In this document: piece by piece, positions 1-23,677 of the stretch
Layout of the letters: each line of letters starts with the position of its first letter
Numbering within the stretch: the stretch's first letter is position 1
Origin: a virus
Strand: one strand, 5' to 3'
DNA: 23,677 bases
IMG/VR virus record: IMGVR_UViG_3300042520_001533
Location: 1-23,677 of that record
Position numbers and translations under genes: made by a program
The notes under the pieces: generated by a model
What the model was told of the DNA's origin: nothing
The model's database searches: none
What the model saw: only the letters and a program-made list of their open reading frames with translations

Positions 1-795
1 CTCAAAGTCTTGATCATTGGCTAGGTAGAACAAGATACTATCCCTGAGATTGTTGTTATGTGTATCGGTAGCAGTGTTCATAGATCGATCTGCATCTAGT
101 TCCCCGTCATAGACAAGCCACTCAAGGTAAGCTTTGGGTATGCGGTGGTACGGCATGTTTCTAAGTGTACCCATCACGCTCATGTCCCAAGGCATTCTCT
201 CTACACATTGCAAGAGAGTGAAAGCTACACCGTCATAATCTTTGTTGATTACTTCCCCTGCTAAGTCTCTGCTTTTAAGCTTCAGATAATCTTTGTTCTT
301 TAGCATCCGTGGATTGACGAAGTGCTTACAGTCAATAGGTCTGCAATGGTTTGTCTTGAGAAGATGTCTGTCATAAGTCTTACTGATCTCAACCAAGTCT
401 TTGATTTTGAACCAGGTTTTTCCTTTCCAGTTCCTAGGCATGGTGGTGAACAACTCTGTCTTATTGTCTTGCATGTACCTCTTATATGATCTCAGTACAG
501 TGTGCGTTTTCATTCTGTTGCTGATGTATTTATCAACACGCACACCCCTGCTTCGGATATGAGGGTCACAATTGTCGGGGTTAAGAACAAAGACTCTGTT
601 CATCTTATTCCTTATCCAGTCGGCATAGATATGTCTTTGCTCCCAGCTAACAAGTAGGTCATCGTCTTTAGTAATAGGTGAGCCAGCAGTAACAACTCTG
701 TAAGTCCAGTTAGGGTTGTGCTTGTACCCTTCAATAAAATCGGCTAGAAGATTACCAGCCTTGGGCATTGCGCTATCCGATATGAGTAGTGCCAT
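1..795 (-). CDS. Unknown phage protein, 3' end beyond window
   Basis: An open frame of 265 codons without a stop runs from an ATG at 795 off the left edge, so the C-terminus is missing. The start is supported by AAGGAG six bases upstream. The visible protein begins MALLISDSAMPKAG and is rich in basic and aromatic residues, with a Cys/His-containing stretch around residues 146-153 (HCRPIDCKH) that could bind metal but matches no motif I know. No signal peptide or membrane segment is visible. It is the last minus-strand gene in the window and lies beyond two hairpin terminators (909-1014), so it is probably its own transcription unit. I do not recognise the family; that it is coding rests on the long open frame, the strong ribosome binding site and the protein-like composition. 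Confidence 0.75.
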   Translation of the reverse strand, partial: MALLISDSAMPKAGNLLADFIEGYKHNPNWTYRVVTAGSPITKDDDLLVSWEQRHIYADWIRNKMNRVFVLNPDNCDPHIRSRGVRVDKYISNRMKTHTVLRSYKRYMQDNKTELFTTMPRNWKGKTWFKIKDLVEISKTYDRHLLKTNHCRPIDCKHFVNPRMLKNKDYLKLKSRDLAGEVINKDYDGVAFTLLQCVERMPWDMSVMGTLRNMPYHRIPKAYLEWLVYDGELDADRSMNTATDTHNNNLRDSILFYLANDQDFE

Positions 796-5217: not shown

Positions 5218-7632
5218 TTAGATACAAGCATCAAAACTATCCATCTGAAACTTCTTGAACAACTTGAAGTAAACAGGGAAGGTCTTCCTTCGGCAAAGAA
5301 GATGATCTGTTTTCTTCACTTCCCTGAGATGTGCAACATGTGCCAAACCAACCCATAAGGTGCGGTTAGGATTAGCAATGCCCCACTTCTCAAATATGTT
5401 CTTGATATCAGTCAGATGGTATTCAATCTGAGTGTCCATCCACTCGTAGGCAGCGGGCTTTAACACCCACTTACCCCGACTGAACTTCTTCAAAGGACGA
5501 GGTACAGCATCCTTAGCTGTGAGATTGCACATGGTACGATACCTGTCTTTCAACAGTTCTAGTGCATCCCTGTTAACCTTACGATCACTATGAAACTTAG
5601 CACCTGTGAGAAGTGCAAGGTAGTGATTCCGGATACGAACTTCCTCGATCTTGATATCGACTTTCTTGAGAGCCGATTCAACTTTCTCTGAGCCAGCTTT
5701 CACTAGCCGTGAGAACCAAGACAACCCTAATCTTTTCTGATCTTTGAGGTCAGCTAAGATTTGAGGGTACTCGTATTTATCAAAGAAGCTTTTGCATTTC
5801 TCTAACATAAACTCGTCAATCAACTTGTCTGATCGAAGAACCAAATCTCCAATCATTTTTGCAGCAGTCATCTTGATCCATGCAATATCTTCTGGATCTC
5901 GAGTTTGCTGACAAGTGTCTACGACATCTTCCATTGGGACCATGATGTTGTTCCGCTCACCGTTGGGATGAGCTAGATTCCAAAGTGTAAGTACATTGAT
6001 GATCGTGCCCGGGTTTAGGCCGTCAACACCAACTTCTACTAAGAAGTCCTCAAAGTCGTAATCGTCTTTGTAAGACACTTTGGCTCGACTCTTACTGGGT
6101 AACTGAGGAATCTTTTCTCCCCGTGCCAACAAGATCGCATCCCGCTCAGTCGCCTTCAACGGCATCTTTGCAGGAAGCTGAATATCGGGAACCTCTATCG
6201 GTGGTGTGCCGATAAAAGTACACACATTGTATTCACCACGGTCTGACGGATTTCTGTGCATGAAGCACACGACCTCATCACCCCGCTTACGGAAGATGAC
6301 CGAGAGCTTATCATCCGCATCCATGCCACCATGGTTACGAAGATTCTCGAAGTAGGTATCGTCTGATACTACAAAGAGCATATACTCTTTGCAGTACATC
6401 ACTGCACCCTTCGGTACAGTGTAGTCAATGCCGAGCATTCTAAGAACACTCTCAGAGACCAATTGACAATAGACAGCACCAGGTATTTGAACCCTAATGC
6501 TCAACTCGTATAAGTCAGCAACACGCTGCATCCCAGACCGCCACACTCCCTTGAGCACGGCAGGGAGAGATCGAATGTCGCCCCACTCTTTCCACTGACA
6601 CAACCACATACGCTGTTGTGTAGTGTGGCTCTCTTCGATTCGTCCGTGAATTAGATCAAGTCTTAACTCATCCAACGAGTCTTCCAACTCATTGGTATCC
6701 ATTGCAGCGACTTTAGTATCAAGAGCATTGTTAACCCAGTGGTAAACACTAGAGTCTTCAACCTTGATGTTGAAGCCACAACCAAAGGCCTCTGGAAAGT
6801 TTCTAACCGCTTGACGGTTGGTATAGCCCTTCAGCTTACCTGGTTGTGGATCAATCCCTACATAGGCATAGTCACCATCAATAACTAGTTCTTTCTTGAT
6901 GTTGGTCTTATGACAGACCACATCGTGTGCCATGTCACACACAAAGAACTGACCTTTAATAAACCCAATCTTGGGAATGAACAACCTACCATTGAATACC
7001 AAAGTAGAAGTCAAGAGTCTCATCACTCCCGCTTTCTCTTCGGTGTCCATACCAACTTTATCTAACCTAGCTGCGGTCTGTCGAACAATCTCAGCAAACA
7101 ATCTGTAAGAGATAGCAATGGCTCCATCCATTACTTTTTCATACTTGCTTACATCATCTCCTACTAACTTTTTGCCATCAGATGTTGTCTTGTCCAGAAT
7201 CTTTACGGAGTCTGGATTAAGAACATTAACACCAATCTTTGCAAAGCCAAGGTATGGCTTAAGCAATTGCGATGCTCTCTTGGGAGTCTTAAGCCCCATC
7301 ATAAGCTTAACCCCAAGAGTCTTGAACCAGCCGAAGAATGTAACCTTCTCTGGCGAAACCGCAAAGATGATTGAGTCACCTTTGTGAACGGAGAAGATAA
7401 GATTGCCCTTAAGAGCTAAGAAGAACTCTTTGCGGGCAACGGAACTATCATTAGGACAATTCTCAGCCTCCCCAATGATGGGGAAAGAGTACACACGGTA
7501 CTCCTTGTCTAGCAAGTCGAGAAAGTGATAAAGCCTACCGTGAAGACCAGAAAGGTTCTTTGAGTCTGCAATAAGCTCGAACTCGAAACCCTTCTTAACA
7601 AAACCAGATAAAGTAATATCAAAACTATTCAT
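5218..7632 (-). CDS. Putative RdRP/YonO-like RNA polymerase
   Basis: An 804-aa protein. I place the start at the ATG at 7632, preceded by GGAG at nine bases. Upstream GTG and ATG codons would add a translated T-run and lack a proper site. Several segments resemble, in order, signatures of the two-barrel polymerases of the eukaryotic RdRP / phage YonO type. DGAIAIS (169-175) followed by LFAEIVRQTAARL resembles the DG-x-G-x-IS element. GFIKGQFFVCD (223-233) resembles the G-x-KG-x3-V element. IPGAVYCQ (383-390) resembles VPGA-x2-LMG. GGMDADDK (435-442) resembles the catalytic GGDLDGD loop. The match is imperfect: a Lys replaces the last Asp of DxDxD, and an RNP-x3-GE segment (460-467) follows rather than precedes the loop. 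If correct, this is a single-subunit RNA polymerase for phage genes. It is the largest minus-strand gene of the early side and has its own T-rich leader. Confidence 0.45.
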   Translation of the reverse strand: MNSFDITLSGFVKKGFEFELIADSKNLSGLHGRLYHFLDLLDKEYRVYSFPIIGEAENCPNDSSVARKEFFLALKGNLIFSVHKGDSIIFAVSPEKVTFFGWFKTLGVKLMMGLKTPKRASQLLKPYLGFAKIGVNVLNPDSVKILDKTTSDGKKLVGDDVSKYEKVMDGAIAISYRLFAEIVRQTAARLDKVGMDTEEKAGVMRLLTSTLVFNGRLFIPKIGFIKGQFFVCDMAHDVVCHKTNIKKELVIDGDYAYVGIDPQPGKLKGYTNRQAVRNFPEAFGCGFNIKVEDSSVYHWVNNALDTKVAAMDTNELEDSLDELRLDLIHGRIEESHTTQQRMWLCQWKEWGDIRSLPAVLKGVWRSGMQRVADLYELSIRVQIPGAVYCQLVSESVLRMLGIDYTVPKGAVMYCKEYMLFVVSDDTYFENLRNHGGMDADDKLSVIFRKRGDEVVCFMHRNPSDRGEYNVCTFIGTPPIEVPDIQLPAKMPLKATERDAILLARGEKIPQLPSKSRAKVSYKDDYDFEDFLVEVGVDGLNPGTIINVLTLWNLAHPNGERNNIMVPMEDVVDTCQQTRDPEDIAWIKMTAAKMIGDLVLRSDKLIDEFMLEKCKSFFDKYEYPQILADLKDQKRLGLSWFSRLVKAGSEKVESALKKVDIKIEEVRIRNHYLALLTGAKFHSDRKVNRDALELLKDRYRTMCNLTAKDAVPRPLKKFSRGKWVLKPAAYEWMDTQIEYHLTDIKNIFEKWGIANPNRTLWVGLAHVAHLREVKKTDHLLCRRKTFPVYFKLFKKFQMDSFDACI

Positions 7633-7670
7633 ATCAAGATACTCCATAATAAAAGAAAAAAAAACACACA

Positions 7671-7685
7671 AACAAACGAACAAGT
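7671..7685. repeat. 15-base leader repeat, copy 1
   Basis: AACAAACGAACAAGT is identical to 8014-8028. This copy lies 39 bases upstream of the start at 7632, next to an A9 run (T9 on the coding strand). Confidence 0.55.
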
Positions 7686-7960
7686 TAATCACCCATAGTT
7701 GCTGATTCCCAACCCCGTGAAGGGTAGAAGTTGTTGTGCCACTTCTCGGTGTTAATCGAGCCGTGATCTTTGATTCGCTTTGCCATTGATCTGGCTTCTG
7801 CCATTGACTTGAAAGTCTCTAAGAGTTGAAGTCCTAACTTTGGACTCCACCTTATTCGGACATAAAACACATCACGGCTTGGATCTCCTGAGCCAAACGA
7901 TGCCGTGCATACATCACGATTACCAAGATTCCAACGAACAAACTTTTGAACAGTACTCAT
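7685..7960 (-). CDS. Small hypothetical protein
   Basis: A 91-aa protein with AAGGAG eight bases before the ATG at 7960. It is a mixed alpha/beta, Trp- and Arg-rich sequence (FVRWNLGNRDVC, FYVRIRWSPKLGLQLLETF, EARSMAKRIKDHG) without membrane segments. The order of a strand with alternating residues followed by a long helix resembles small phage nucleic-acid-associated proteins, but I recognise no family. It is followed after 52 bases by the start of the 804-aa gene with no terminator between them, so the two are probably cotranscribed. The terminator at 7977-8012 separates it from the gene upstream. Confidence 0.6.
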   Translation of the reverse strand: MSTVQKFVRWNLGNRDVCTASFGSGDPSRDVFYVRIRWSPKLGLQLLETFKSMAEARSMAKRIKDHGSINTEKWHNNFYPSRGWESATMGD

Positions 7961-8713: not shown

Positions 8714-11563
8714 TTACCTTCGGTTTAGATCAGTCCAATTATTAATTGGTGTTGTACCTTCTGTCCTTAAGATTCCTTCTTTCTCTTCAATCCTGTCACG
8801 GGTAGTAGCGTTCTTATCAATCCTAAGAGCATGGAAGTCCATAAACTCCATTAAGGTTGGAACAGTAACATCTGCTCCCGTGATAGGATCTTGTTTAATA
8901 ACATACCCTTTAAAGTCGTTTAAGTTTAAGAACTCCGCTGTCTTAAAATATTTAAGCGGAATAACATCGTTGATATGCGCCCGTATTTCATTTAACTGGT
9001 CAAGGGTAGTAGCTTCTTGGATAAGAGTTGGAATAGAAGCCCTTCCTCTTATAGCAATAAAATCTCCCCGTCTTCCCATTTGTACAAACGAATCATACTC
9101 ACTATTTAAAGGATCTGTCTGTGCTTTAAGCCTATCCCTTTCTTGGTTAAGTGCAGAGTTTCTTGGATCTCGGCTTATATCATCTTGCCGTGTAAACATG
9201 TTTTGCAATTCCATGTATCGATTCATGTACTTAGTTATATTGGCACTTTTTCTTGCTTCTTTCATTTCTGGAAGTGCGTTAATTCTTTTACCAATTTGGA
9301 AACGAAGTCTTCTTGTATACATTTGCATCTGATCCCTAACAGCATCTTGCAATTCTTTTCCCGTGTACCCTTGCTGAATAAAGTGTAATTGAGAAGCTTC
9401 CCTCATTTTTCTAAGGTGATAGTTTCTTTCAATACCTATTTTTCCAATTGTAGATTCACCTAACGAAGTTAAATCCCTAACCCTTTTACTTTTATCTTTT
9501 GCTTCTCGTATTGCTTGTTTTTTAAATTCTTTGCTTTCTCTTTCTCTTCGTGCTTCTGGATTCATCTCTTTTCTTTTTTTGATCTGATCTTCTTTTTGTT
9601 TTCGTGGGGTAAGCTCATTCATACTGGTAGTTCCATCTCGTCTACCAGAAACATAAAGGTTAAATAAATCTTTGTTAACCCTAACAATTTTTTCCATTTC
9701 ATCAATGATAGGCATGTTTTTAAGCCTTACACTTAAGCTGCTTAAAGATAAAATGTTTTGAATGTAATTACAAACAAGCATTCTACCCCCATCTCCCCTG
9801 TGTACTCGTTCTAGTTCTTCTTTTACTTTGTGTTGTAAGTCATACATGTTTTTAATACCAAACGATCTCATTTTTTTTCCAAAGCTTGCACTGTCCGCAA
9901 TGTTAATCAAAAGAGGATCAGTTTTAACTTGAACCTTGTCTTTAACTTTTGTAAATACAAACTCTTGCATGCTTGAGCTAAACGCATACTCAAAGTATTT
10001 GTTTTGCACAAACGGCAAAAACTTACTTAAGAAATCTTTACCCATTGCATTTTTTAAAACACCTCGTTGGTTTTTACTCCATTCTTTTAATATACCTTTT
10101 CCTAACTTATTTATTTCTTCGGCTATTACTTGTCCTACTTTAGATTTAAATTCATCAGTGCTTTTAATTCCTTTAGGATCATCTAACATTTTTTTAATAT
10201 CTACATTTTCTTTTACTTTTTTAAGAACATTATTTTTATTTAATAACTTACTTTCAACAATTTCATTACCCATAGCAGCTACTGTTCTTGCCCCTGCTGC
10301 TGTTCGTACATACGCTTTGGGATCAAACCCAATCTTTATCATTCTGTCCATTAAAGCTTTATCTTTAAACGCTCGCAGAATTTGATCATCGTCTTTTTTG
10401 AATATAGCTAACTCACGGTGGTTTACTTCTTTTTTATACGCTGCTTGTACTTTAGGCATATCTACTTTTGCTGGGTCATTAACAGCATATGAAACCAATA
10501 AACCTAATACTTTACTTTCTTTGCCTAACTTTTTTATTAAGTCTTTTGCTCTTTTAGGGTGGAGCTTAGTTCCTATGTTTCTAATACCTCTTAAGTCACC
10601 AGCATTTAAAAGTTTTATAACCTCCCTACTCAAAACAAAACTATCTCTAATTTGTCCTGGTGCAATATTACCCGTAGACAAAGTAGCCATACTCTCAACA
10701 ATTTGAGTGTTATAAAAGTAAACTGCCTTTGTCAGCTTTCTAACTTTTCTAAACTCCAACATCAATGAGTTTTTAGCAGCAATAGTAAAAGAGTCTTTTG
10801 GTAACACATTTAATAAATCATCAAGAGCATTTGAAGCTTCAACGGCATTTGCTGAATTAAGAATTTTTTGTATAGGTGCAGGTAGTTGTTTAATCTTAGA
10901 AATGATCTCTGCAATTTCTCTTTCGGCAGCTTGAAGCTCCGAAGCATTAGACCTTGTTGCAGAAGACTTATACAAACCTTCCCACTTTTTAAAATCACTT
11001 GTTGTAGGATTTCCTATCTGCCGAATAATATTTGCCCTTGCTTGCCCTGCTGTTCCAACCACTAAATTATTTACCGTATTTTGTTCTTTACTTAATACCG
11101 ACTTTTTTCCTGTCCGTGCAAACCTTGCTTCTTCTACAAACTTAAAATGCTGATCTGCAAAAGCTTTTCTTCTTTCTAATGCTCCCAAAACATACTTATC
11201 CCCTTCTTCATAAGCAGTTACAATTCTATCCCAAGCTCGAGGTTTATCTTTCTTAAGCTGTTGCATAAATGTAGACTTAAGCCAATTGTTTTTTAATAAG
11301 CTAAGATGCTTACTTACATCTGTGACAAAAGTATTTCCCACCAAACTTCTATAAACGCTTGGGTTTCTTCTTCGTACTTCTTTTATCCACTTTGATAATT
11401 CTGTGGCACTACCATCAACAGGGAGAGGAAGGATAGAATTACTTTTTCCCATAGCCCGAAGCAATGCACTACCTCGTAAATCTAAATCAGTCATCAAGCT
11501 TGCTATATCCCCAACATTTCTATGCCTGTTCAAAAGGTCTTTGATTCTGGAATTTATTGCCAT
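8714..11563 (-). CDS. Large basic helical protein, unknown; possible virion protein
   Basis: A 949-aa protein. I chose the ATG at 11563 (MAINSRIKDLL) because GGAG lies eight bases upstream; the frame extends 20 codons further to a TTG without a site. The sequence is overwhelmingly helical and Lys/Arg-rich, with few Cys. Strongly charged stretches occur near the middle of the C-terminal half (TPRKQKEDQIKKRKEMNPEA, ESKEFKKQAIREAKDKSKR) that may be coiled coil or nucleic-acid-binding. I see no enzymatic motif, signal peptide or clear membrane segment. It is divergent from the portal gene across a 90-base gap and ends at its own terminator. Size and position beside the head genes would fit an internal virion or ejected protein, but this is inference. 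The central part (9900-10700) is markedly AT-rich, similar in feel to the tape-measure gene. Confidence 0.65.
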   Translation of the reverse strand: MAINSRIKDLLNRHRNVGDIASLMTDLDLRGSALLRAMGKSNSILPLPVDGSATELSKWIKEVRRRNPSVYRSLVGNTFVTDVSKHLSLLKNNWLKSTFMQQLKKDKPRAWDRIVTAYEEGDKYVLGALERRKAFADQHFKFVEEARFARTGKKSVLSKEQNTVNNLVVGTAGQARANIIRQIGNPTTSDFKKWEGLYKSSATRSNASELQAAEREIAEIISKIKQLPAPIQKILNSANAVEASNALDDLLNVLPKDSFTIAAKNSLMLEFRKVRKLTKAVYFYNTQIVESMATLSTGNIAPGQIRDSFVLSREVIKLLNAGDLRGIRNIGTKLHPKRAKDLIKKLGKESKVLGLLVSYAVNDPAKVDMPKVQAAYKKEVNHRELAIFKKDDDQILRAFKDKALMDRMIKIGFDPKAYVRTAAGARTVAAMGNEIVESKLLNKNNVLKKVKENVDIKKMLDDPKGIKSTDEFKSKVGQVIAEEINKLGKGILKEWSKNQRGVLKNAMGKDFLSKFLPFVQNKYFEYAFSSSMQEFVFTKVKDKVQVKTDPLLINIADSASFGKKMRSFGIKNMYDLQHKVKEELERVHRGDGGRMLVCNYIQNILSLSSLSVRLKNMPIIDEMEKIVRVNKDLFNLYVSGRRDGTTSMNELTPRKQKEDQIKKRKEMNPEARRERESKEFKKQAIREAKDKSKRVRDLTSLGESTIGKIGIERNYHLRKMREASQLHFIQQGYTGKELQDAVRDQMQMYTRRLRFQIGKRINALPEMKEARKSANITKYMNRYMELQNMFTRQDDISRDPRNSALNQERDRLKAQTDPLNSEYDSFVQMGRRGDFIAIRGRASIPTLIQEATTLDQLNEIRAHINDVIPLKYFKTAEFLNLNDFKGYVIKQDPITGADVTVPTLMEFMDFHALRIDKNATTRDRIEEKEGILRTEGTTPINNWTDLNRR

Positions 11564-11589
11564 TTTTTCATCTCCGTGGCATCTTTCTA

Positions 11590-11618
11590 TTGATCCATAT
11601 CTTAATTTATACCATAAT
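11590..11618 (+). promoter_or_regulatory. Sigma70-like promoter for the structural genes
   Basis: TTGATC at 11590-11595 (4 of 6 to consensus), a 17-base spacer, and CATAAT at 11613-11618 (5 of 6) face the portal gene. The predicted start near 11625 leaves a leader of about 30 bases to the ATG at 11654, which has AAGGG six bases before it. The site lies in the divergent gap, so it may overlap signals for the 949-aa gene. Confidence 0.5.
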
Positions 11619-11653
11619 AGCAATATTAGCGATCTTAAATATAAGGGTTAATT

Positions 11654-12994
11654 ATGGCAAAGCGTAAGCGTAAACTTCGCCTCCCTCCTGACCAAGCATC
11701 AGATAGGGATCTTTCCACGCTTCTATCCTATGGTCCTTCCTTTCTTCCCTATGTTGCTGCATGGACAGACTCTCGCATTGAGCAAGTTCGGAACTTTAAG
11801 CATTGGATATACATTGCAGTCCGAACTATTGCCAAGCAAGTTGCCTCTCAAATACCTAATGTGTCGTGGACATACCATCACTCTCTAGCTGCTCCCCGTG
11901 CAAACTACCTACGCTCAAAAGCTCTAATACCCCTGCTATCCCACGAAGACTTAGAACCAGTACCGGACAAACACCCCTTACTGCGTTTGTTAAAAGATCC
12001 CAACGATCCCGACACTTCCTATGATCTTTGGTATGAAACCATCATGTTTCATCACCTCACAGGTATAGCGTACTGGTGGATGCCCAAGAACGCTCTTGGC
12101 CTCCCTGCTGCAATTTGGGTAGTACCTTCCCATTGGATGTGGCCCATTGTTGGTCAAGACAAACTTATTGAAGGCTATGAGATTCGACCTATTGAAGGTA
12201 ATTACTTTCGTAAGTTCTTACCCGTTGACGAAATTGTTGTGTTTAAAGATAAGTCGCCCATCTCAAAGATTGATGGTTACTCCCCTCTGACAGCAGGCGC
12301 ACAGTGGGGCGATACAATGGAAATGATTAACCGCTCTCGTTGGCATGCTTACAAAAACGGAACATTCCCAACAGTAGCTGTTCAGTTTGATGGGAAGTTT
12401 CAAGACCCTAGTGATGAAGACCTTCGCCGAATTGAATCCAAGTTTATGTCCCGATACACAGGTGAAACCCGATCTAACCGTCCAATGTTTTTACCGCCAG
12501 GTGTTTCGGTTAACCCAATATCCCTTGGCATTAACCAAATGTTATTCGGTGAAACGGCAAACGAAGTAAGAGACAACCTACTAGCCTTGTTTGGTGTACC
12601 CGCCTCCGCAGCAGGGCTTTCTAAAGACATGACATATGGTTCGGTAATGGCATCTCATGCTGGGTTTATGCAGCAAACTATTAACCCTTTACTCCGTTAT
12701 TTTGGTCAAGTAATCACTGAGAAGGTTGCTCATCGTTACGATGACTCTTTAAAAGTTTGGTGGGAAGACATCACCCCGCATGACCCAGAGCTTGTAGAAA
12801 AACAAATTCAAACCGATTTGATGTGTGGTGCAATAACTCCTAACGAAGTTCGTATTATGCGTGGCAGACAACCTTTTCCAACAGCATGGGGGGATAACCC
12901 AATTCTTCCTGTTAATGTTGCAAGCACTCCTATGGGTGGTACACATGCTCCCGTACCCGCTCCTTTATCCAATCCAAACGATAACAGAGGATAA
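11654..12994 (+). CDS. HK97-family portal protein
   Basis: The 446-aa portal forms the dodecameric ring at one head vertex through which DNA is packaged and ejected. The family is recognisable from conserved segments in order: IYIAVRTIAKQVAS near residue 50, WYETIMFHHLTGIAYWWM in the first third, EIVVFKDKSP with GYSPL in the middle, FPTVAVQFDG, and FLPPGV. Then come EVRDNLLALFGVPASAAGL and INPLLRYFGQVI, the typical portal stem and crown region. Length is normal (about 380-480). It is the first gene of the plus-strand module, just after a predicted promoter, and is followed two bases later by the protease gene. No terminase precedes it; the neighbour on the left is the divergent 949-aa gene. 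The N-terminus (MAKRKRKLRL) is unusually basic. Confidence 0.93.
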   Translation: MAKRKRKLRLPPDQASDRDLSTLLSYGPSFLPYVAAWTDSRIEQVRNFKHWIYIAVRTIAKQVASQIPNVSWTYHHSLAAPRANYLRSKALIPLLSHEDLEPVPDKHPLLRLLKDPNDPDTSYDLWYETIMFHHLTGIAYWWMPKNALGLPAAIWVVPSHWMWPIVGQDKLIEGYEIRPIEGNYFRKFLPVDEIVVFKDKSPISKIDGYSPLTAGAQWGDTMEMINRSRWHAYKNGTFPTVAVQFDGKFQDPSDEDLRRIESKFMSRYTGETRSNRPMFLPPGVSVNPISLGINQMLFGETANEVRDNLLALFGVPASAAGLSKDMTYGSVMASHAGFMQQTINPLLRYFGQVITEKVAHRYDDSLKVWWEDITPHDPELVEKQIQTDLMCGAITPNEVRIMRGRQPFPTAWGDNPILPVNVASTPMGGTHAPVPAPLSNPNDNRG

Positions 12995-12996
12995 TC

Positions 12997-15525
12997 ATGA
13001 GTAAATTTGAAATACCATCATCGCTTGAAACAGCTAGCCCCGAACTACTTAGAAGGTTTATTCAAGACCGAAAAGCTTTTCATAACGACCAACTAAAGAA
13101 GTCTGGGGTACTCTCTCTACCTCCCCAGTACTTACGAAACATGGCTCACACCCTAGGCCAATCGCCTTCCGCTCCCCTAGCTCTTGATTCAGATGATGCT
13201 GAAGAGCCAAAGGTAGATACATACAACATGACCGCTCGTTTTGTAATTACAACATCGGGCAAAGATAGACACGGTGATATTGTTTTACCCCGAGGTTGCG
13301 TATCCCATCTTAAAAACTATACTCGTAACCCTCGAATATTCTTTGCTCATAAAACTGAAGAGCTTCCTATTGCATCTGCCCGTGACCCAGAAGGCAACCT
13401 TGCTCTTGAGATTCTTGAGGACAAAATCTACTCTACAGCTTACTTCCACGGAGAAACCCGTGAATCAGAACTTATCTTTCGTCTAATAGCTCGCAAAGAA
13501 TTACAAGCTTGCTCCATAGGTTTTCTTCCTATTCGAGCTACTCTTATTGAAGATGAAGATGAAGAAGACCTTATCGACATAACAACAGGGGAAGAAATTC
13601 TCAACTTCCGTTCTAACTCTTCTCGTCAAATGCCCTGCCTTCGATTTTTAGAATGGGATATGATTGAGTGGAGCGTAGTGCCTATTCCTGCAAACCAAGA
13701 TGCACTTGCAGCCCACCTTTCCCGTGGACACATTGAAGGGGAAAAACTTTCTCCTTCTATCAAAAGAACATTATCTTCTTTTGTGTCTAAAAAGAAAAAT
13801 GTTTCAGTTTCACTTTCTCTTCCTTTAATCCAAGAAGAAGAAAGTGAAATTGAAACTCTGGAAAAAGAAATTGAAAAAGAAATAGAAGAAAACGAAAACG
13901 AAAAAGCTGCTGAGGTAGATAAAGAAAAATTAGACGAAGTGTTTGCAAGCTATAAAAAAGAAACAAACATGGGTTATGCAGCCCTTAAGAAATGGTCTGA
14001 GAGTGCTTGTTCTAAGCGAGCATCTTTAAGTAGAGGTCCAATCAATCGTAACCTAGAACTTTTATCTACTCCTAAAGATAAGTGGACAGCAAAGCATATT
14101 ACATGGGCAAACAAGACTATAGCCTTTAACACTCGCATGCTTGGTATGCCTAGAGGTAAAAGACTTTCTGAAGAATGTCCTTGGTCAAAGCGTGACATCT
14201 CTTTAAAGAATTGGGCTTACGACCCAGGCAAGACTCCCGAAAGTAAAAAAGAGTTAGGTGAAGAAATAACTCACCAGATGTATGCAGGGCCTAGTCCTGG
14301 TGTTGATCTTCCTTTAGCTGAAAAAAAGAATCCTCCCGCTCCACCTAAAGATCAAATAACGGGAAGTGATACAAACAAGCCTAACTCAGCTTCGGATGAT
14401 AAAGGCAAAATTACAATTAGTCAGTCAACCGAAAAAACTCTTAAGAACAAAATAAAAGAGCATAATGAAAAAGTAAAAGAAAAACCCGCATGGGCAAAGA
14501 CTACTCTAGGGGCAGTCAAGTCTGTGTATCGCCGAGGGGCAGGGGCTTTCTCTTCCTCCCACCGTCCTAACATGACCCGTGCTCAATGGGCTTTTGCAAG
14601 GGTTAATGCTTTCTTATACCTCTGTAAAAATGGAAAACCAGAAAACAAAAAATACATAACAGACAATGATCTCTTACACAAAGATCATCCTAAGTATTCC
14701 AAAGAAAAAAAATCTATTAAGAGTGCTAAAACCCTATCACACTTAGAAACAAATTCTTTGTTTGGTAAACTTTTAGCAAAGCAATACAAGGCAGTAAAGT
14801 CTGAGGTCAAGATGGCTATGGCAGTCCTCTTGTCCTTGCAAGAAGGATTACTCCCCGAAAAAATTAAAATCGGGGTTTACATCATCCTTGCAAAGCATTA
14901 TAAATTATTAGATATAACCTCTCCGGTTTATCGCAAGATTTCTAGCCTTGAAGAAATTAAAACGATGTTTCCGGAAATTGACATTAAGGAGTTTACTACC
15001 GTGGCAACCAACGAAGAAAACTGGATTAAGAGCGCAATGGATGAATTACAATCACCCCCTACTCAGGGCAAGCCAAAAAAGAAAAAGAAAGAAGATGAAG
15101 ACGAAGAAGAAAAATACGCTTCTTCTAAAGACGATGAAGAAAAAGCAGAAGATGAAGATGCAGAAGAAAAAGCTGCTAATGACGAGGATGAAAAAGAAGA
15201 CAAAGAAGTAGACGAAGAAGAAAAAGAAATGGATGAAGAAGAAAAAGCTGAAGACGAAGACGAAGAAAAAATGGTAGAAACCAAAGATATTCTTAAGTCT
15301 ATGTCCGCAGTAATGCAATCCATGCACGAATGCTCAAACGCTCACACCGAGCTTCTTAAAGGTCTTCACGAAAAGATGGACGAATGTATGAAAGCATTTG
15401 CTCCTAAAGAAGACAAAGAACAGGAAGAAGACGAAATGAAGTCTATTCTTTCTGGTCTACTAACACTCAAGTCAAACCAAGACGCTTTAAACCGCCGTCT
15501 GTTTGAAGTGACAGGAAAACGGTAA
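12997..15525 (+). CDS. HK97-type prohead protease with long scaffold-like extension
   Basis: An 842-aa protein, far longer than the roughly 200-aa HK97 prohead protease. Residues about 75-245 are the S78-type protease: RHGDIVLPRG (91-100), FFAHKTEELPIASA with probable catalytic H118, ACSIGF with nucleophile S173, and EWSVVPIPANQDA with E224. Added modules are a Lys/Glu coiled coil (about 265-325) and a basic helical segment (330-410) with Trp repeats. Another basic block (about 495-570, SVYRRGAGAFSSSHRPNMTR then QWAFARVNAFL and YITDNDLLHKDHPKYSK) reminds me of modules attached to other phage head proteases. Helices follow, then a low-complexity Glu/Asp/Lys tract (about 690-757) and a C-terminal coiled coil (760-842). 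The acidic, coiled-coil end suggests a built-in scaffold processed during maturation. It directly follows the portal gene and overlaps the next gene at TAATG. Confidence 0.9.
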   Translation: MSKFEIPSSLETASPELLRRFIQDRKAFHNDQLKKSGVLSLPPQYLRNMAHTLGQSPSAPLALDSDDAEEPKVDTYNMTARFVITTSGKDRHGDIVLPRGCVSHLKNYTRNPRIFFAHKTEELPIASARDPEGNLALEILEDKIYSTAYFHGETRESELIFRLIARKELQACSIGFLPIRATLIEDEDEEDLIDITTGEEILNFRSNSSRQMPCLRFLEWDMIEWSVVPIPANQDALAAHLSRGHIEGEKLSPSIKRTLSSFVSKKKNVSVSLSLPLIQEEESEIETLEKEIEKEIEENENEKAAEVDKEKLDEVFASYKKETNMGYAALKKWSESACSKRASLSRGPINRNLELLSTPKDKWTAKHITWANKTIAFNTRMLGMPRGKRLSEECPWSKRDISLKNWAYDPGKTPESKKELGEEITHQMYAGPSPGVDLPLAEKKNPPAPPKDQITGSDTNKPNSASDDKGKITISQSTEKTLKNKIKEHNEKVKEKPAWAKTTLGAVKSVYRRGAGAFSSSHRPNMTRAQWAFARVNAFLYLCKNGKPENKKYITDNDLLHKDHPKYSKEKKSIKSAKTLSHLETNSLFGKLLAKQYKAVKSEVKMAMAVLLSLQEGLLPEKIKIGVYIILAKHYKLLDITSPVYRKISSLEEIKTMFPEIDIKEFTTVATNEENWIKSAMDELQSPPTQGKPKKKKKEDEDEEEKYASSKDDEEKAEDEDAEEKAANDEDEKEDKEVDEEEKEMDEEEKAEDEDEEKMVETKDILKSMSAVMQSMHECSNAHTELLKGLHEKMDECMKAFAPKEDKEQEEDEMKSILSGLLTLKSNQDALNRRLFEVTGKR

Positions 15526-15743
15526 TGTCTTCGCCTAAAACGAAAAAACATTCTGGTACTTGCTCTACTTGTTCTTTTTGGGAATCCCAAGAAAAACAAG
15601 TAGGGGAATGCCATCGCTTTCCTCCGGTTCTCATTCAATCCGTACCTGGCAGTCATTTGCTTCCAGAAGGAAAGATGGGAATTTTTCCCTTAACCCAAGC
15701 AACTATTACTTGTGGTGAGTTTAAGTCCTCAACCCTTTTATAA
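15525..15743 (+). CDS. Small four-cysteine protein, probable metal-binding
   Basis: A 72-aa protein whose ATG overlaps the protease stop (TAATG), so it is translationally coupled. Cys13, Cys16, Cys29 and Cys63 in the pattern CSTCSFW ... GECHRFPPV ... FPLT ... CGEF suggest a small zinc-binding fold. Proteins with this CxxCxxW / GxC / PP / CGEF pattern occur in other phages and prophages near head genes without a known function. It lies between protease and capsid genes, so a role in head assembly is conceivable. No membrane segment is present. The reading is supported by gene packing and the ordered Cys spacing. Confidence 0.75.
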   Translation: MSSPKTKKHSGTCSTCSFWESQEKQVGECHRFPPVLIQSVPGSHLLPEGKMGIFPLTQATITCGEFKSSTLL

Positions 15744-15755
15744 AGGAATCTATTC

Positions 15756-17171
15756 ATGGCCGAGAAAAATCTTAAGCCCGTGCTGGATGCAATCCAGAAC
15801 ATCACGGACACTCAGTCCAAGTTCCAAAACAAATTGGAAGAAATCGAAGTAGGCTCAAAGTCTGCTCGAAACAATTCCACCCTTAACGCTCCCCAAGTGC
15901 GTAAAGGCGAAAACACTATGAGTAGCCGAGGCTATAGCTTCGTAAAACTCTTTGGTCTTCTTCGTGGCGAACTTGCTCCTGAGCAAGCACGGGTTGAATG
16001 GGAAATGGCACAGAACCTTCAAAAGCTTTATGTAGACCGTCTTGGCTACAACAAAGCCCACACTAACACAATCATGGCTCCTTTTGGTAGCGATTACATT
16101 GCTGAAATCCCTGGCGAAGAAGGCTTTGCAAAGGAAGTAAGGCAAGTTGTATCCGCTGGCATTAGCGGTTATGACCGTGAAGAAGTGCGTGGCATTCGTG
16201 CCAAACATTGGGGTGTTCAGAAAGCAATGTCTTGGATCGATGAATCCCAAGGCGGTGCTTTGGTAGCTCCCCCAGTCCAAGGCGAACTTATTGAACTTCT
16301 TCGTAACAACGAAGTGTTTATGGCTGCTGGTGCTCGCACCATTGCAATGCCACCAAATGGAAGAATCACCTTCCCAAGACAAACCAATGCTGGCACAGCT
16401 TACTGGGTTGGTGAATCCAACGCAGTTCAAGACTCAACACCCGCAACAGGTGATGTGCTCTTGCAAGCTAAAAAGCTTGGTATCTTGTGCAAAGTTCCAA
16501 ACGAACTTTTCCGATTTAGTTCTGTCTCGGTTGAAATGTTCTTGCGAGAAGATATCAGCCGTGTACTTGCTTTGCGTTTGGATAAGTCGTTGTTGGAAGC
16601 TGCTGGTTCGACTAACGAACCTAAGGGCTTGATCAACTACGCTAACATTACCAGACACACTGCCAAGACTCCTGGCACAAACGGTGACACCTTCACACCA
16701 GAAGATGTTGCAAACATGATTGGTAAAGTCGAAGAACAAAACGCACAGTTTAAGTCCTTCGTTATGCGACCTCTTATGTATGCTGCAATCGCCAACAGGC
16801 GAGCCGATGCCGTCACCGCTGGTGATAGCAAAGGACCATTTGTGTTCAACATGTTCCGTGAGTTGAACCAAAACAGCATTGACTACTCTCGAGGCACCCC
16901 TGGCAATCTATACGGCCACCCCGTATTTAAGAGCACCCAGATTTCCGCTAGTAGGTCTAAAGGAAGCTCAAGCAACCTTTCCTACATCCTTGGTGGTGAT
17001 TTTGCTGATTACCTCATTGCTATGTCAGGTGCCATCGAGTTTCAAATTTCAACACAAGGTGATACACCCTTCACGACCGACCAAACTTGGTATCGAGGGA
17101 TTATGTACACTGATGGCGCACCTCGCCATGAAGCATCTTTCGTACTTTGCGATAACCTCAATATCGCTTAA
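15756..17171 (+). CDS. HK97-fold major capsid protein
   Basis: A 471-aa major capsid protein with AAGGA nine bases before the ATG. The first roughly 110 residues, beginning with a coiled coil (LKPVLDAIQNITDTQSKFQN), are probably the delta/scaffold domain removed by the protease. The HK97 fold then starts around IDESQGGALVAPPVQGELIE (161-180), followed by conserved elements. These are IAMPPNGRITFPRQTNAGTA, AYWVGESNAVQDSTPA (216-230), LLQAKKLGILCKVPNELF, SVEMFLREDISRVLALRLDK, EAAGSTNEPKGLIN, NLYGHPVFKSTQIS and GDFADYLIAMSGAIEFQIS. All are typical of the phage capsid family. A plus-strand hairpin terminator follows, as expected where the capsid gene must be expressed above downstream genes. Confidence 0.95.
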   Translation: MAEKNLKPVLDAIQNITDTQSKFQNKLEEIEVGSKSARNNSTLNAPQVRKGENTMSSRGYSFVKLFGLLRGELAPEQARVEWEMAQNLQKLYVDRLGYNKAHTNTIMAPFGSDYIAEIPGEEGFAKEVRQVVSAGISGYDREEVRGIRAKHWGVQKAMSWIDESQGGALVAPPVQGELIELLRNNEVFMAAGARTIAMPPNGRITFPRQTNAGTAYWVGESNAVQDSTPATGDVLLQAKKLGILCKVPNELFRFSSVSVEMFLREDISRVLALRLDKSLLEAAGSTNEPKGLINYANITRHTAKTPGTNGDTFTPEDVANMIGKVEEQNAQFKSFVMRPLMYAAIANRRADAVTAGDSKGPFVFNMFRELNQNSIDYSRGTPGNLYGHPVFKSTQISASRSKGSSSNLSYILGGDFADYLIAMSGAIEFQISTQGDTPFTTDQTWYRGIMYTDGAPRHEASFVLCDNLNIA

Positions 17172-19999: not shown

Positions 20000-20452
20000 A
20001 TGGCTACAGCTATTTCCGGTTTTCGTGGTCGTGTTATTGTAGGTACTTCAACCCTCTTGGCTTCCAAGTGGTCTGTTACTTACAAAACCGAATTGCAAGA
20101 TTGTTCAAGCTTTGAAGAAGAAACAGGTGGTGCTAATGGAGCTATCACTCCAATCAGCCGATATGTTGCTTCTTTGTCTGACATGGAAGTTTCAATTGAT
20201 GCTTTCTACGATGTAGAAACAGGCATTATCCCTGCCCTTAAGCCTGGCTCTTCTGTAGCTTGCGAATTGTATACTAACAAAGGAGCAAGTGTTCCTTTTG
20301 GTATTCCAGCGGGGGGTGCAGGTGCAACAGCAAAGAAATTTGCTTTCAATGTTCTTATTGAAAACCTTACTACTGACACTGAAGTTAGAGGCGTGATCAA
20401 ATACACGATCTCTGGTCGTGTAAGTGGTGGTCAGACCTTGACCCTTGCTTAA
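20000..20452 (+). CDS. Tail tube protein (first paralogue)
   Basis: A 150-aa protein with AAGGAG nine bases before the ATG. The N-terminal GFRGRVIVGTSTLLASKWSVTYKTELQD, with SDMEVSIDAFYD in the middle and VRGVIKYTISGRVSGG at the end, matches the pattern of a tail-tube beta-sandwich protein in phages where the strand G-(F/Y)-x-G-(R)-V-x-(I/V) is followed by a conserved KWSV element. The tube polymerises around the tape measure. The position just before the chaperone genes is canonical. It has a paralogue directly downstream (20525-20989). Confidence 0.7.
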   Translation: MATAISGFRGRVIVGTSTLLASKWSVTYKTELQDCSSFEEETGGANGAITPISRYVASLSDMEVSIDAFYDVETGIIPALKPGSSVACELYTNKGASVPFGIPAGGAGATAKKFAFNVLIENLTTDTEVRGVIKYTISGRVSGGQTLTLA

Positions 20453-20470
20453 TGTTTTTAGTTTTCAACT

Positions 20471-20518
20471 GGAAGAGCCTTTGGAACTTCCGAAGGCTCC
20501 TTCCTTGTAAAAGGAAGG
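20471..20518 (+). promoter_or_regulatory. Competing hairpins between the two tail-tube genes
   Basis: Hairpin 1 pairs GGAAGAGCCTT (20471-20481) with AAGGCTCCTTCC (20493-20504), one bulge. Hairpin 2 pairs CCTTCCTT (20499-20506) with AAGGAAGG (20511-20518) around GTAA. The two share bases 20499-20504, so they exclude each other. The 3' arm of hairpin 2 is the ribosome binding site of the gene at 20525, so hairpin 2 would hide it and hairpin 1 would free it. This could set the ratio of the two tube paralogues. Confidence 0.55.
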
Positions 20519-20524
20519 TATCCT

Positions 20525-20989
20525 ATGGCCCGTGCAGCCGGATATGGTGGAAGAGTACTGATCAACGACACCGTGCTTTACGCAAACAAGTGGGCTGTTG
20601 ATTACACTCTTGAAACTGATGAAGGTACTAGCACTCAAGGAAACCAACCTGTTTACTTTAACCCCGCTAACCCTCAGACTTACCGACTGAATACAAAACG
20701 GTTATATCCCAAAGTAGCAGAAATCTCCATAAACTTTGAAGCATTCTACGACACTTCTCATGGGTGGCTAACTGCTTCGGCTCAACAAGGCGGTTTCTTT
20801 TGGGGTCTATGTCCTGGAAGAGAAGTTAGAATAACTCTTTTTCCAGCAACGCATCTTCGCAATAACGCACTCTGGTATTTTCAACAAGCTCTGATTGTCC
20901 AATGCACCCAGACCGTGGAAGTCAGGCAAGTTGTAAAAATAAATTTTTCGGCTAAGAACAACGGTCCCAATTACACTATTAACATTTAG
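20525..20989 (+). CDS. Tail tube-like protein (second paralogue)
   Basis: A 154-aa protein, a diverged duplicate of the gene just upstream: GYGGRVLINDTVLYANKWAVDYTLETDE aligns with GFRGRVIVGTSTLLASKWSVTYKTELQD, EISINFEAFYD with EVSIDAFYD, and VEVRQVVKINFSAKNNG with TEVRGVIKYTISGRVSG. The paralogue has an insertion (about residues 38-62, Pro/Asn-rich) and an aromatic loop (GGFFWGLCPGREV). AAGGAAGG lies seven bases before the ATG inside a hairpin arm. A tube variant at one end of the tail, such as a distal or collar ring, would explain two copies; a plain second tube protein is the alternative. Confidence 0.65.
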   Translation: MARAAGYGGRVLINDTVLYANKWAVDYTLETDEGTSTQGNQPVYFNPANPQTYRLNTKRLYPKVAEISINFEAFYDTSHGWLTASAQQGGFFWGLCPGREVRITLFPATHLRNNALWYFQQALIVQCTQTVEVRQVVKINFSAKNNGPNYTINI

Positions 20990-20998
20990 GAGTTTGAT

Positions 20999-21442
20999 AT
21001 GGCTGAGATTTCTAAAGCCCTTGGTCTGGGCAGCAGTTTTGCACATGAAGGAAAGACTTACACCTGTTCCCCGTGGACATACAAGATCCAAGGCGAGTTT
21101 GAACGCTACCTTGAAGATCATGCAATCCGCACAGCAAAACGCATGAGGCAATACCTTAACCAAGAAGAATACTCTGACCTAATTGCAAAAACACAAAAAG
21201 ACATTGCAGAAGGTTATTACGCTTTTGGTGCATCACCCTGCATGAGAGCAATGCAAACTCTTACGCACTTTAAAAAAATACTACAACTGTGCCTTATCGT
21301 TAACCACCCTGACATTGACATGGAGTTTGTTGACGAGCTTGTACAGAACCGTCTTGAAGAAATGATGGCAAAAGTTGGAGAGGCGAACAACGACCCAAAC
21401 CAGAATGGTCCGGAGGCAACTCAGAACCAGGCCGCCGGATAA
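20999..21442 (+). CDS. Tail assembly chaperone (gpG-like)
   Basis: A 147-aa helical, charged protein with AGGAG six bases before the ATG. Its position (after the tail tube, before the tape measure) and its relation to the next frame make it the G component of a G/GT chaperone pair that keeps the tape measure protein soluble while the tube assembles. Helices such as KIQGEFERYLEDHAIRTAKRM and MEFVDELVQNRLEEMMAKV fit. A C CCA AAC slippery site at codons 133-134, followed by a hairpin, predicts that a fraction of ribosomes shift to -1 and make a 240-residue fusion with the downstream frame. The unshifted product ends 13 residues later with QNGPEATQNQAAG. Confidence 0.8.
   Translation: MAEISKALGLGSSFAHEGKTYTCSPWTYKIQGEFERYLEDHAIRTAKRMRQYLNQEEYSDLIAKTQKDIAEGYYAFGASPCMRAMQTLTHFKKILQLCLIVNHPDIDMEFVDELVQNRLEEMMAKVGEANNDPNQNGPEATQNQAAG
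21394..21439 (+). promoter_or_regulatory. Programmed -1 ribosomal frameshift signal
   Basis: The heptamer C CCA AAC (21394-21400) is in the right phase of the upstream frame for slippage to CCC AAA. After an 8-base spacer a stem forms between TCCGGAGGC (21409-21417) and GCCGCCGGA (21431-21439), with one A-G mismatch and a 13-base loop. The -1 frame is open from 21358 to the stop at 21718-21720. Confidence 0.8.
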
Positions 21443-21444
21443 CC

Positions 21445-21720
21445 ATGTCTGGGGTTTTTTCAACGCTAGTTAAAGAGCCTTTCAACCTTTCAATAGAAGA
21501 GATTGGAAGGCTCACTCCCTACCAAGTGAAAAACATCTTCTTTCGACCTAAAGAAGCAGATGAACCAGTGGGTGAGTTTCAAAGCGAGAAAGAACTTTTC
21601 TGGAAGGTTCATGTTGATTGGAAAGGGCTTACCGAAGACGAAACGCAAAAGTTGTGGGATCGGCATATTCGGAAGCAAGAAGAAAGTCTAAAAACACCAC
21701 CGGAGAACTCCGATGATTAA
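21445..21720 (+). CDS. Tail assembly chaperone, T part reached by frameshift
   Basis: A 91-codon frame that is -1 relative to the preceding gene. Its ATG lies two bases after the upstream stop, with no convincing ribosome binding site, which suggests that the region is expressed mainly as the C-terminal part of the gpGT-type fusion (134 residues plus 106 residues, 240 in all). The sequence LSIEEIGRLTPYQVKNIFFRPK, then ELFWKVHVDWKGLTEDETQKLWDRH, is typical of T-domains that contact the tape measure protein. It overlaps the tape measure start by 8 bases. Independent translation from the ATG cannot be excluded. Confidence 0.8.
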   Translation: MSGVFSTLVKEPFNLSIEEIGRLTPYQVKNIFFRPKEADEPVGEFQSEKELFWKVHVDWKGLTEDETQKLWDRHIRKQEESLKTPPENSDD

Positions 21721-23677
21721 TGAAGGTGAAAGCCACAAAAAGCAACGGCTTATGCAAACTCCTTATACGGGTGCAGAAGCCGTTGGTAAGCTCCTTAAAA
21801 ACTTTGGCCAAATATCGGAAGCTGTCTCTAGATTTGGTAATACATTAAACGCAATTCACATTGCTGCCGAAAACATTGAACATGAGTTTCGCAACCTTGC
21901 TTCAATGATGTCTATGACACGGTATTCAATGTCCATGTCTAACAACTCTCCTATGTACGGTGCTGGGGCAAAGCGCACAAACTTCCCCAGCCCACAAGAA
22001 CGACTAATAGAATTTGAAGTAGTCGAACGAGCTAAAAACAATATCCGTGATCAACTCAAACAAGAGCGTGGCGAACAACCTTTTAAAGACAACGCAACCC
22101 GACTAGATGAATACGAATCATTCTTAGAAGAAAAAGAAGCAGCGTACAAAAACCATAAAGCAAGAATGGATGACTTGTACAAGAGAGATGGAAAAGAACC
22201 AGTCACTACCGAAACAAAAATAAACGAATACCAAAAATTCTTAGATGAAAAATACACTAGGTTACAAACCTATTTAAAAAAAGAACTAGACTTATTTGCT
22301 ACCATGCAAAAAGCTAGAGGACTTGAAAAAGTTGGAATAAATAAATTAATTTTTGAATACGAAGAATCTTTAAAATCACAAAACAAAAGAAAAAATAATA
22401 ACAAAAACAACAACTCTGGTTCTGATTATGTATCTGGTTCTGCCCCTGACTATTCAGAGATGCCAGCAGTACCTAAAAAGAAAGCAGCTATAGTTGTATT
22501 AGACTTTGAAACGGCTGGTGCGCCTGGTGCAGATATACAAAAAGATAAAAACGATTATGTTAAATCAGCAGACATTATACAAATAGCAGCCGAATTTAGA
22601 GATGATGTTGGCAATGTACTAGAGACATTTAATGTGTTTTTAGACAAACGAAGTAAAGAAATAACGCTACCGTCTAAGCAAGGATTAGGTGGCGACAAGT
22701 TTGCTGGTCTTCAAAAGGCTTGGCAAGAAGCAAAAGACAGTGGCAGCATGGTTACTATGGAAGATGCTGCTGCCAAATTAAAAAGCATAATAGATTCTAT
22801 AGTTGTACCTGGTGTTACAAAGTTTGTAGTTAAAGACACTTTTGATACTGAGATAGTTCAAAATAACGACACTGATAAAAACAAATTGCTTCAGCCCGTC
22901 CTTGGGCCTTTTATGCAAAACAGTGATGTTATTGATGTTCAAGATGTATTTAAACAACTGTTTGAGAAAGAAAAAGAATTAGACCCTAGTAAACAAAGTG
23001 CCACTCAAAGAGCAATGGCAGATGTTGATAGCACTTCCGGTGGAACAAATTATGATAAACAAGTTTTTACTATTGAAACAATGTTTGCTGCTCTTAAGCC
23101 TGAGTTAGAAAAATTAGCTAATGAATTAAATGAAAGCAGTACAGACCTTGGAAAGTTTCATAACGCTCTTGGTGATGTGCGAATTGAATCGCTTCTTTAT
23201 CTTTTTGCCCAAAGAAAATTAAAAACAATAGCAAAAGAAGCTGCTACTAAAAATCCTAACCCAACAAAAGGATCTAAAGGTAACACAACTGCTTCAACAA
23301 ACACTTCACCTAAAAAACCAAACAATACTTACTCATCAAACAGTGGAGTGCAAAAAGTAGAAGTAGTAGCTCCCCTTCCACTTCCAGTAATTATAGTTGG
23401 AGGCGGTGGTAATTTTGGAAGTGGTGGTGGAAGTAACGGAGGCAATGGAGCACCCCCGTTTACACTTACTTTTCCTATGGTAGATGATAAGTGGATTGAA
23501 AAGTCTATAGAAGCATTAAGAAAAGAACGACAAAATGATGAAGCAAGAAAAGCTGGTGGAAAGCCAGCAAGCAAGAAAAATACAACTAATACCACTAACG
23601 ATTTTAGCGGTGGCAAACCCTCGGCACCTAATGACAATTTTGTAAGTGATAGTATTGTTGATCAAATTATAAATGGA
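21713..23677 (+). CDS. Probable tape measure protein with embedded DEDDh exonuclease domain, partial
   Basis: 655 codons open to the window end. GGAG lies seven bases before the ATG. Being directly after the chaperone pair identifies it as the probable tape measure gene. Residues about 1-220 are helical with likely coiled coils. An Asn/Ser/Pro-rich linker (221-257) leads to a domain that looks like a DnaQ/RNase T-type exonuclease. Motif I is AAIVVLDFETAG (D264, E266), then DIIQIAAEF and GNVLETFNVFL, the usual next strands. Motif II is FVVKDTFDTEIV (D378). Motif III is KFHNALGDVRIESLLYLF (H483, D488, spacing HxxxxD). All five DEDDh positions are filled, and the two spacings of about 110 and 105 residues exceed typical values, implying insertions. 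A Thr/Asn/Lys linker and a Gly-rich stretch (563-579) follow. The protein is AT-rich in codon use. Whether the domain is active is unknown. Confidence 0.8.
   Translation, partial: MINEGESHKKQRLMQTPYTGAEAVGKLLKNFGQISEAVSRFGNTLNAIHIAAENIEHEFRNLASMMSMTRYSMSMSNNSPMYGAGAKRTNFPSPQERLIEFEVVERAKNNIRDQLKQERGEQPFKDNATRLDEYESFLEEKEAAYKNHKARMDDLYKRDGKEPVTTETKINEYQKFLDEKYTRLQTYLKKELDLFATMQKARGLEKVGINKLIFEYEESLKSQNKRKNNNKNNNSGSDYVSGSAPDYSEMPAVPKKKAAIVVLDFETAGAPGADIQKDKNDYVKSADIIQIAAEFRDDVGNVLETFNVFLDKRSKEITLPSKQGLGGDKFAGLQKAWQEAKDSGSMVTMEDAAAKLKSIIDSIVVPGVTKFVVKDTFDTEIVQNNDTDKNKLLQPVLGPFMQNSDVIDVQDVFKQLFEKEKELDPSKQSATQRAMADVDSTSGGTNYDKQVFTIETMFAALKPELEKLANELNESSTDLGKFHNALGDVRIESLLYLFAQRKLKTIAKEAATKNPNPTKGSKGNTTASTNTSPKKPNNTYSSNSGVQKVEVVAPLPLPVIIVGGGGNFGSGGGSNGGNGAPPFTLTFPMVDDKWIEKSIEALRKERQNDEARKAGGKPASKKNTTNTTNDFSGGKPSAPNDNFVSDSIVDQIING

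Follow-up and report, generated by a model that had tools for sequence, protein, structure and literature searches.

Tape measures are among the phage proteins closest to DNA entry, and their role beyond length control is open. A figure of 0.15 nm of tail length per tape-measure residue has been quoted (PMC4569894), and the paper on SNIPE (PMC13190303) describes the lambda tape measure as acting at the inner membrane while the genome enters the cell. Enzymes have been described on such proteins and on other tail components. For instance, Tme, a tape-measure-related effector of the contractile injection systems of Streptomyces davawensis, has endonuclease activity (PMC11126660), and the BtI1 hub protein, a phage tail component, bears an N-terminal domain related to staphylococcal nuclease at a place where its relative in phage 0305phi8-36 carries cell-wall enzymes (PMC2147016). 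Neither a DEDDh nor a double-nuclease phage tape measure was found in the literature searched: in the two papers that mention a DEDDh enzyme as well as a tape measure, these are separate genes, and the relevant sections of PMC7824862 contain nothing on a nuclease tape measure. Here we describe a locus in which a predicted DEDDh 3'-5' exonuclease domain forms a module between low-complexity linkers in the N-terminal part of a tape measure, as judged from sequence, fold and relatives.

The window, by which we mean the whole stretch of DNA that was analysed, is a 23,677-base virus fragment from IMG/VR in which head genes and then tail genes lie on the + strand. The stretch 11654..17171 (+) holds the portal gene, the prohead protease gene (842 aa) and the gene for an HK97-type major capsid protein, with Pfam values of 2.4e-39 for the portal, 3.1e-4 for Peptidase_S78 (21.4 bits, cut-off 21) and 5.4e-40 for Phage_capsid; given their presence, the tape measure gene sits in a head-tail module. 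Two consecutive tail-tube-like paralogues are found at 20000-20452 and 20525-20989 (20000..20989, +), each of which matches the counterpart of the other in the related record L001 at ~26% (tblastn), while their match to phrog_158 (major tail protein) is only weak (E 0.13). The first tail-chaperone-like ORF (20999..21442, +), upstream of the tape measure, was recognised by position and conservation and is named by position only; it has no Pfam match and is 47-86% identical across five aligned relatives. The second (21445..21720, +), likewise named by position only, overlaps the start of the tape measure gene by 8 bases and is found at the same place in all eight lineages considered below (one locus per lineage). 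The tape measure gene (21713..>23677, +) is represented by its 5' part, 655 codons without a stop, and its 3' end lies beyond the contig.

Some other features of the window were also recorded. The prohead protease ORF (12997-15525, 842 aa) matches DUF5824 (26.8 bits, cut-off 25) and has a long acidic low-complexity part, and its middle part is unmatched in L004 (tblastn). Two long ORFs at 5218-7692 (824 aa) and 8714-11623 (969 aa) lie on the minus strand, opposite to the head-tail genes, and neither has a Pfam match above cut-off.

Relatives were located through the first chaperone-like ORF, and the resulting 15 records of uncultured phages, the window included, form eight lineages: window/L001; L004/L005; L006; L007; L008/L009; L010; L011-L014; and L015/L016. 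Homology to whole relatives, together with position, identifies the window gene as a tape measure, as had originally been predicted, and the end of the gene beyond the window is inferred from those relatives. The N-terminus (residues 1-71; 21713..21925, +) aligns in all eight lineages, with one sequence taken per lineage. Five distinct tape measures are whole (2594 aa in L006, 3134 in L009, 1259 in L010, 1307 in L012 and 1327 in L015); that of L012 is identical in L013 and L014, that of L008 is identical to L009 over the shared part, and that of L004 is still open at 3235 aa within its locus. The gene is the largest of the tail genes, placed after the two chaperone-like ORFs in the window and reaching 1259-3134 aa in the whole relatives. 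A hydrophobic C-terminal region is common to L004, L006, L009, L010, L012 and L015; the contig of the window ends too early to show it. Additionally, the PHROG family "tail length tape measure protein" (phrog_794) matches the relative P0002 (E 8.7e-7), and no PHROG match was obtained for the tape measures of L010, L012 and L015. The possibility that the gene is not a tape measure was rejected, as the relatives with whole genes, the common N-terminus and the position argue against it.

Other searches were less informative. Four downstream proteins were scanned and fell in no named family. Direct searches with the window protein and its domain found only one near-identical contig, and, against 50,697 phage records, the window protein and the L012 exonuclease domain gave chance matches only (best E 2 and 4, respectively). 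Regarding the host, two pattern scans of the genomes of 84,980 species matched 50 and 59 stretches, and no relative was confirmed among them. In the L004 tape measure, residues 2017-2045 form a zinc-ribbon-like CxxC..CxxC segment (PF13717, E 0.0013, below cut-off). This ribbon has a planctomycete-like appearance, and no host is named on that basis.

The original prediction had placed the five residues of a DEDDh exonuclease within 22481-23230, and they hold exactly in the 655-aa translation. The domain covers residues ~250-516 (22460..23260, +), as supported by AlphaFold2, Foldseek, VIA-align and an exonuclease HMM. Its ExoI motif, LDFET (22499..22513, +), starts at residue 263 and contributes D264 and E266, in strand 1 of the model, with the Asp and Glu invariant in both relatives' alignments. 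ExoII, KDTFDTE (22832..22852, +; TFDTE starts at residue 376), contributes D378, located where the helix following strand 4 begins. ExoIII, FHNALGD (23156..23176, +), starts at residue 482 and contributes H483 and D488, at the start of the last helix, with H, A and D invariant in an alignment of six sequences. The five codons begin at nt 22502 (D264), 22508 (E266), 22844 (D378), 23159 (H483) and 23174 (D488). It had also been claimed that low-complexity linkers frame the domain, and this held too. After the domain, a Gly/Ser/Asn/Pro-rich linker, recognised by sequence and composition, extends to the contig end (23261..23677, +), residues 501-600 and 601-655 of the tape measure being 53-59% P/G/S/T/N/A; before the domain, the low-complexity stretch KRKNNNKNNNSGS is seen in the translation.

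Sequence profiles alone provide weak evidence for a DEDDh domain. Pfam RNase_T is not reported for the window protein or for any related tape measure, PDB sequence searches were uninformative for the domain and NCBIfam gave nothing useful. A PDB profile search with one of the alignments returned seven rows up to E 1, none of them significant, in which PolC was the sole DEDD-type enzyme (E 0.15). The family phrog_192 (DNA polymerase exonuclease subunit) matches the window protein with E 1e-6 over residues 213-311, linker included. When five of these tape measures were shuffled, a pattern of the motifs matched 2 of the 20,000 shuffled sequences, a count that is indicative only, since the pattern was written post hoc, after the sequences had been seen; moreover, the pattern misses L007 (truncated) and L010. 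The DEDDh identity is settled by the predicted fold and by motif conservation in divergent relatives, not by profile scores.

For residues 250-520, AlphaFold2 predicted a DEDDh exonuclease fold (pLDDT 74.9, pTM 0.78) from an alignment of four sequences, the window and three relatives. The best PDB matches found by Foldseek were REXO2, DnaQ epsilon and oligoribonuclease (best E 1.1e-5, with 60 chains at E <= 0.001), and the best VIA-align match was the nuclease domain of 3'hExo (1w0h; Z 14.3, rmsd 3.0 over 183 residues). The top 50 VIA-align entries (Z 12.0-14.3 over 163-190 residues, 11-20% identity) are all DEDD-type exonucleases or enzymes containing such a domain, among which we take DinG and a large DNA polymerase to be of the latter kind. 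As rows within Z 1 of each other count as tied, and RNA- and DNA-specific families do tie, the fold does not reveal the substrate. In a viral fold library, the top named rows were mainly exonucleases, with some helicases, and there were also unnamed proteins. Thus, the window domain is a DEDDh exonuclease by motifs and fold, the fold being a model prediction and catalytic activity an inference. A comparison of the predicted structure of residues 250-510 with DnaQ and RNase T had been suggested as a check of the original prediction; its outcome was favourable, with an RNase H-like core predicted. The expected clustering of the motif residues is consistent with the model, although this judgement was made without coordinates and rests solely on the secondary structure and the ranges aligned by VIA-align (8..256 to 127..315 of 3'hExo, both ends of which we take to be in register with the catalytic residue numbers of 3'hExo).

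The exonuclease HMM detects the domain in 14 of the 15 records and in seven of the eight lineages. Six of the sequences detected had themselves served to build this HMM, and L007 is the only lineage outside that set; its match (E 1.9e-5) covers the first ~95 aa of the domain only, as both L007 and L011 are cut inside it. No exonuclease domain was found by HMM in L010, the tape measure of which is complete. In the four distinct whole relatives that carry it, the domain lies between ~8% and 38% of the way along the tape measure (residues 210-481 of 2594 in L006, 586-868 of 3134 in L009, 219-503 of 1307 in L012 and 224-509 of 1327 in L015). Beyond this group, a survey of the best 80 of at least 573 loci from a capsid search, with + strand ORFs, gave nothing better than E 0.37 with this HMM, although in many of these contigs the tape measure is truncated or not reached, and absence is not shown there. 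The only RNase_T match among the 15 records is a separate gene outside the tape measure, in G012; aligned by hhalign with the six domains, its product matches over the ExoIII stretch only (32 columns, P 0.0024, probability 12), which is weak.

Only nine columns are invariant in the six-sequence alignment. ExoI D-x-E and ExoIII H-x4-D are invariant in all six sequences, and their Asp/Glu and His/Asp are among these nine columns; motif residues persist even where the deepest groups share 12-20% identity. The ExoII Asp is kept in the window, L004 and L006; L012 and L015, the ExoII columns of which are out of line in the alignment, also have it when the motif is read by eye, and L007 is cut before ExoII. 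In L008/L009 this Asp is replaced by Glu, so all five residues are present in five of the six aligned sequences, and the replacement cautions against assuming activity, which is itself inferred, in every lineage. The domain is maintained, as it is more conserved between L012 and L015 (62% identity) than the flanking linkers (35% and 47%; the C-terminal core of the tape measure is at 63%), its dN/dS in this pair is ~0.25 (with a dS of 1.2, near saturation), and the codon changes between the window and L001 (97.7% DNA identity) are mostly synonymous (nine, with two non-synonymous, in the domain).

A second nuclease is found in several relatives. PF00565, the staphylococcal nuclease family, scores above cut-off in six of the 15 records. 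Five of them, L004, L005, L006, L008 and L009, have it in frame with the tape measure and belong to three of the eight lineages (L004/L005, L006 and L008/L009); the sixth, L010, has it in a 302-aa ORF. Scores were 52.8 bits for P0003 and 33.4 bits for P0005 (cut-off 21); in P0002 the match is unreported for the whole protein and reaches 34.9 bits for the domain alone. No PF00565 match was obtained for the L012-L015 records, in which the tape measures are complete, and the window, L001, L007, L011 and L016 end before this region could be seen. The Asp, the Glu and the second Arg are invariant in the four aligned sequences, and the first Arg is Ser in L010; we take these aligned residues to be the catalytic set, a mapping of positions to thermonuclease having been observed for L006. 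Membrane-like segments bracket this nuclease in L004 (1413-1431 and 1814-1832), L006 (864-882 and 1393-1411) and L009 (1110-1128 and 1595-1613). These rest on plain hydropathy (1.60-1.79); the first L006 segment, at 1.60, is below the listing threshold and was taken from a separate run, and a proline-rich run in L004 (1767-1785), above the threshold, was excluded from the count. It is possible that the tape measures of these three lineages are multi-enzyme cargo, perhaps spread over both membrane sides, an idea inferred from sequence without virion or ejection data.

In L010, the 302-aa ORF (L010:9074-9982) combines a tail-tube-like N-terminus (~25% identity to the window ORF at 20000-20452) with a C-terminal staphylococcal nuclease (56.7 bits). 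It lies directly upstream of the chaperone ORF and is the last of three tail-tube-like ORFs in a row. L010 lacks the tape-measure exonuclease, and through this fusion one of its tail proteins nonetheless bears a nuclease. Together with the one or two nuclease domains on the tape measures of this family, the presence of a nuclease on a neighbouring tail protein where the tape measure has no exonuclease points to selection for virion-borne nucleases.

A zinc-peptidase-like HExxH segment was also observed between the exonuclease and the staphylococcal nuclease, intact in L006 (HESIH, residue 706) and altered in L004 (~1301) and L009 (~1011). The model of the L006 region is poor (pLDDT 50.3, pTM 0.45), and no third enzyme is claimed.

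We propose that the exonuclease would enter the tail as part of the tape measure and leave it at infection, to work around genome entry either as an ejected enzyme or docked at the envelope. It may remove 3' ends near the entry site, either of host RNA or DNA, of rival DNA or of defence nucleotide signals. DEDDh domains need Mg or Mn, and, as this domain would act on ends, packaged DNA may be less at risk. In three lineages, the same polypeptide would add the staphylococcal nuclease between two membrane-like segments. Staphylococcal nuclease needs calcium and, if this homologue is calcium-dependent, it may stay quiet in the producing cytoplasm and be active outside or in the periplasm; this argument is weakened by the existence of a magnesium-dependent relative (PMC3585158).

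The reading of an ejected or envelope-docked tape-measure nuclease, of which activity, ejection and target are all inferred, has in our opinion a slight edge, with a probability of roughly 0.55. In its favour are the motifs and fold, the tape-measure identity, the occurrence in seven of eight lineages, the retained residues, the second nuclease and the precedent of Tme. Against it, there are no activity, virion or ejection data, the host is unidentified, L008/L009 have Glu at ExoII and Pfam RNase_T does not match; L010 does without the exonuclease, and L012-L015 do without the staphylococcal nuclease. Additionally, the phage's own DNA could be at risk from an active nuclease within the tail lumen, and a globular domain in multiple copies must fit, or unfold, inside the tail tube. 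Ejection, DNA-end trimming, degradation of host nucleic acid and an anti-defence role had all been raised in the original prediction as possibilities, and they remain inference only, neither confirmed nor refuted.

Other explanations must be considered. The domain could handle the phage's own genome, binding or trimming the 3' end of the leading DNA end in the tail for docking, release or end repair, without any anti-host role. In tape measures the N-terminal side points towards the head, which in lambda-like tails is where the leading DNA end is found, and the domain lies towards that side (between ~8% and 38% of the length in the whole relatives that carry it); moreover, trimming suits an exonuclease better than bulk degradation does. 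However, L010 has no such domain at all, the extra staphylococcal nuclease in the same protein is left unexplained and the position of the DNA end is carried over from lambda-like tails; we regard this explanation as unlikely. It is similarly doubtful that the exonuclease fold has been retained merely for structure or for binding nucleic acid and catalyses nothing in the virion. The Glu at the ExoII Asp in L009, the weak profile scores and, by inference, the steric problem of the tail lumen would agree with such a role, but four of the only nine invariant columns are the ExoI Asp/Glu and the ExoIII His/Asp, and the complete five-residue set is missing from just one of the six aligned sequences (with ExoII of L012/L015 read by eye).

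The least convincing of these alternatives is that of a polyprotein, the nuclease parts of which would be cut off in the producing cell and act there, in replication or host-DNA breakdown, without ever being delivered. Tape measures of some phages are processed, and a prohead protease gene nearby and long low-complexity linkers could be cited in support. Nevertheless, G007, the 94.7-kb contig of L009, encodes a DNA polymerase of family A (PF00476, 124.7 bits) that includes a 3'-5' exonuclease domain (PF01612, 28.9 bits), and G012, the contig of L014, has its own RNase_T gene; because of these two genes, a role in replication is less likely, and we consider the polyprotein very improbable. The RNase_T exonuclease of G012 stands alone (L111:955-2268, 437 aa, 78.7 bits), and its C-terminal region is BRCT-like, at 20.4 bits, just under the cut-off of 21.3.

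A bolder version of the tape-measure nuclease reading can also be formulated, although we regard it as improbable. According to it, the tail would carry a nuclease kit, an exonuclease plus, in some members, a membrane-bracketed endonuclease, and once the tape measure inserts, the two would come to lie on either side of the inner membrane where the DNA enters. If this were true, the nucleases would clear nucleic acids or defence components during genome passage, as a phage counterpart of SNIPE. The family makes it possible to test how folded enzymes pass through the tail and whether Tme-like effectors derive from phages of this kind.

Compared with known DEDDh exonucleases (3'hExo/ERI, oligoribonuclease/REXO2, DnaQ epsilon and TREX), the window domain shares the five residues in order and the RNase H-like core. 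By contrast, it is embedded in a tape measure and has a long insert between ExoII and ExoIII, and several subfamilies tie in structural match, at 11-20% identity. With Tme (PMC11126660), the resemblance is that of a tape-measure homologue with hydrophobic and disordered regions and a nuclease domain; however, Tme serves as an effector of bacterial injection systems and combines DUF4157 with an EndA-like endonuclease at its C-terminus, whereas here a phage tape measure carries a DEDDh domain in its N-terminal part and, in some members, a staphylococcal nuclease. The BtI1 protein differs in being a T4 gp27-like hub and not a tape measure, and DEDDh is not mentioned in the relevant sections of PMC2147016. 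Tape measures with cell-wall hydrolase motifs, such as that of TM4 (cited in PMC13277306), likewise have an enzymatic insertion, but its target is peptidoglycan. SNIPE (PMC13190303) is also a nuclease at the tape measure during genome entry, but it is host-encoded and cuts phage DNA, while in the present case the nuclease domain belongs to a tape measure that the phage itself encodes. Within the literature and the phage records searched, enzymatic tape measures and tail-borne nucleases were thus already known, and what is new is the DEDDh kind of enzyme and the unusual stacking of two nucleases.
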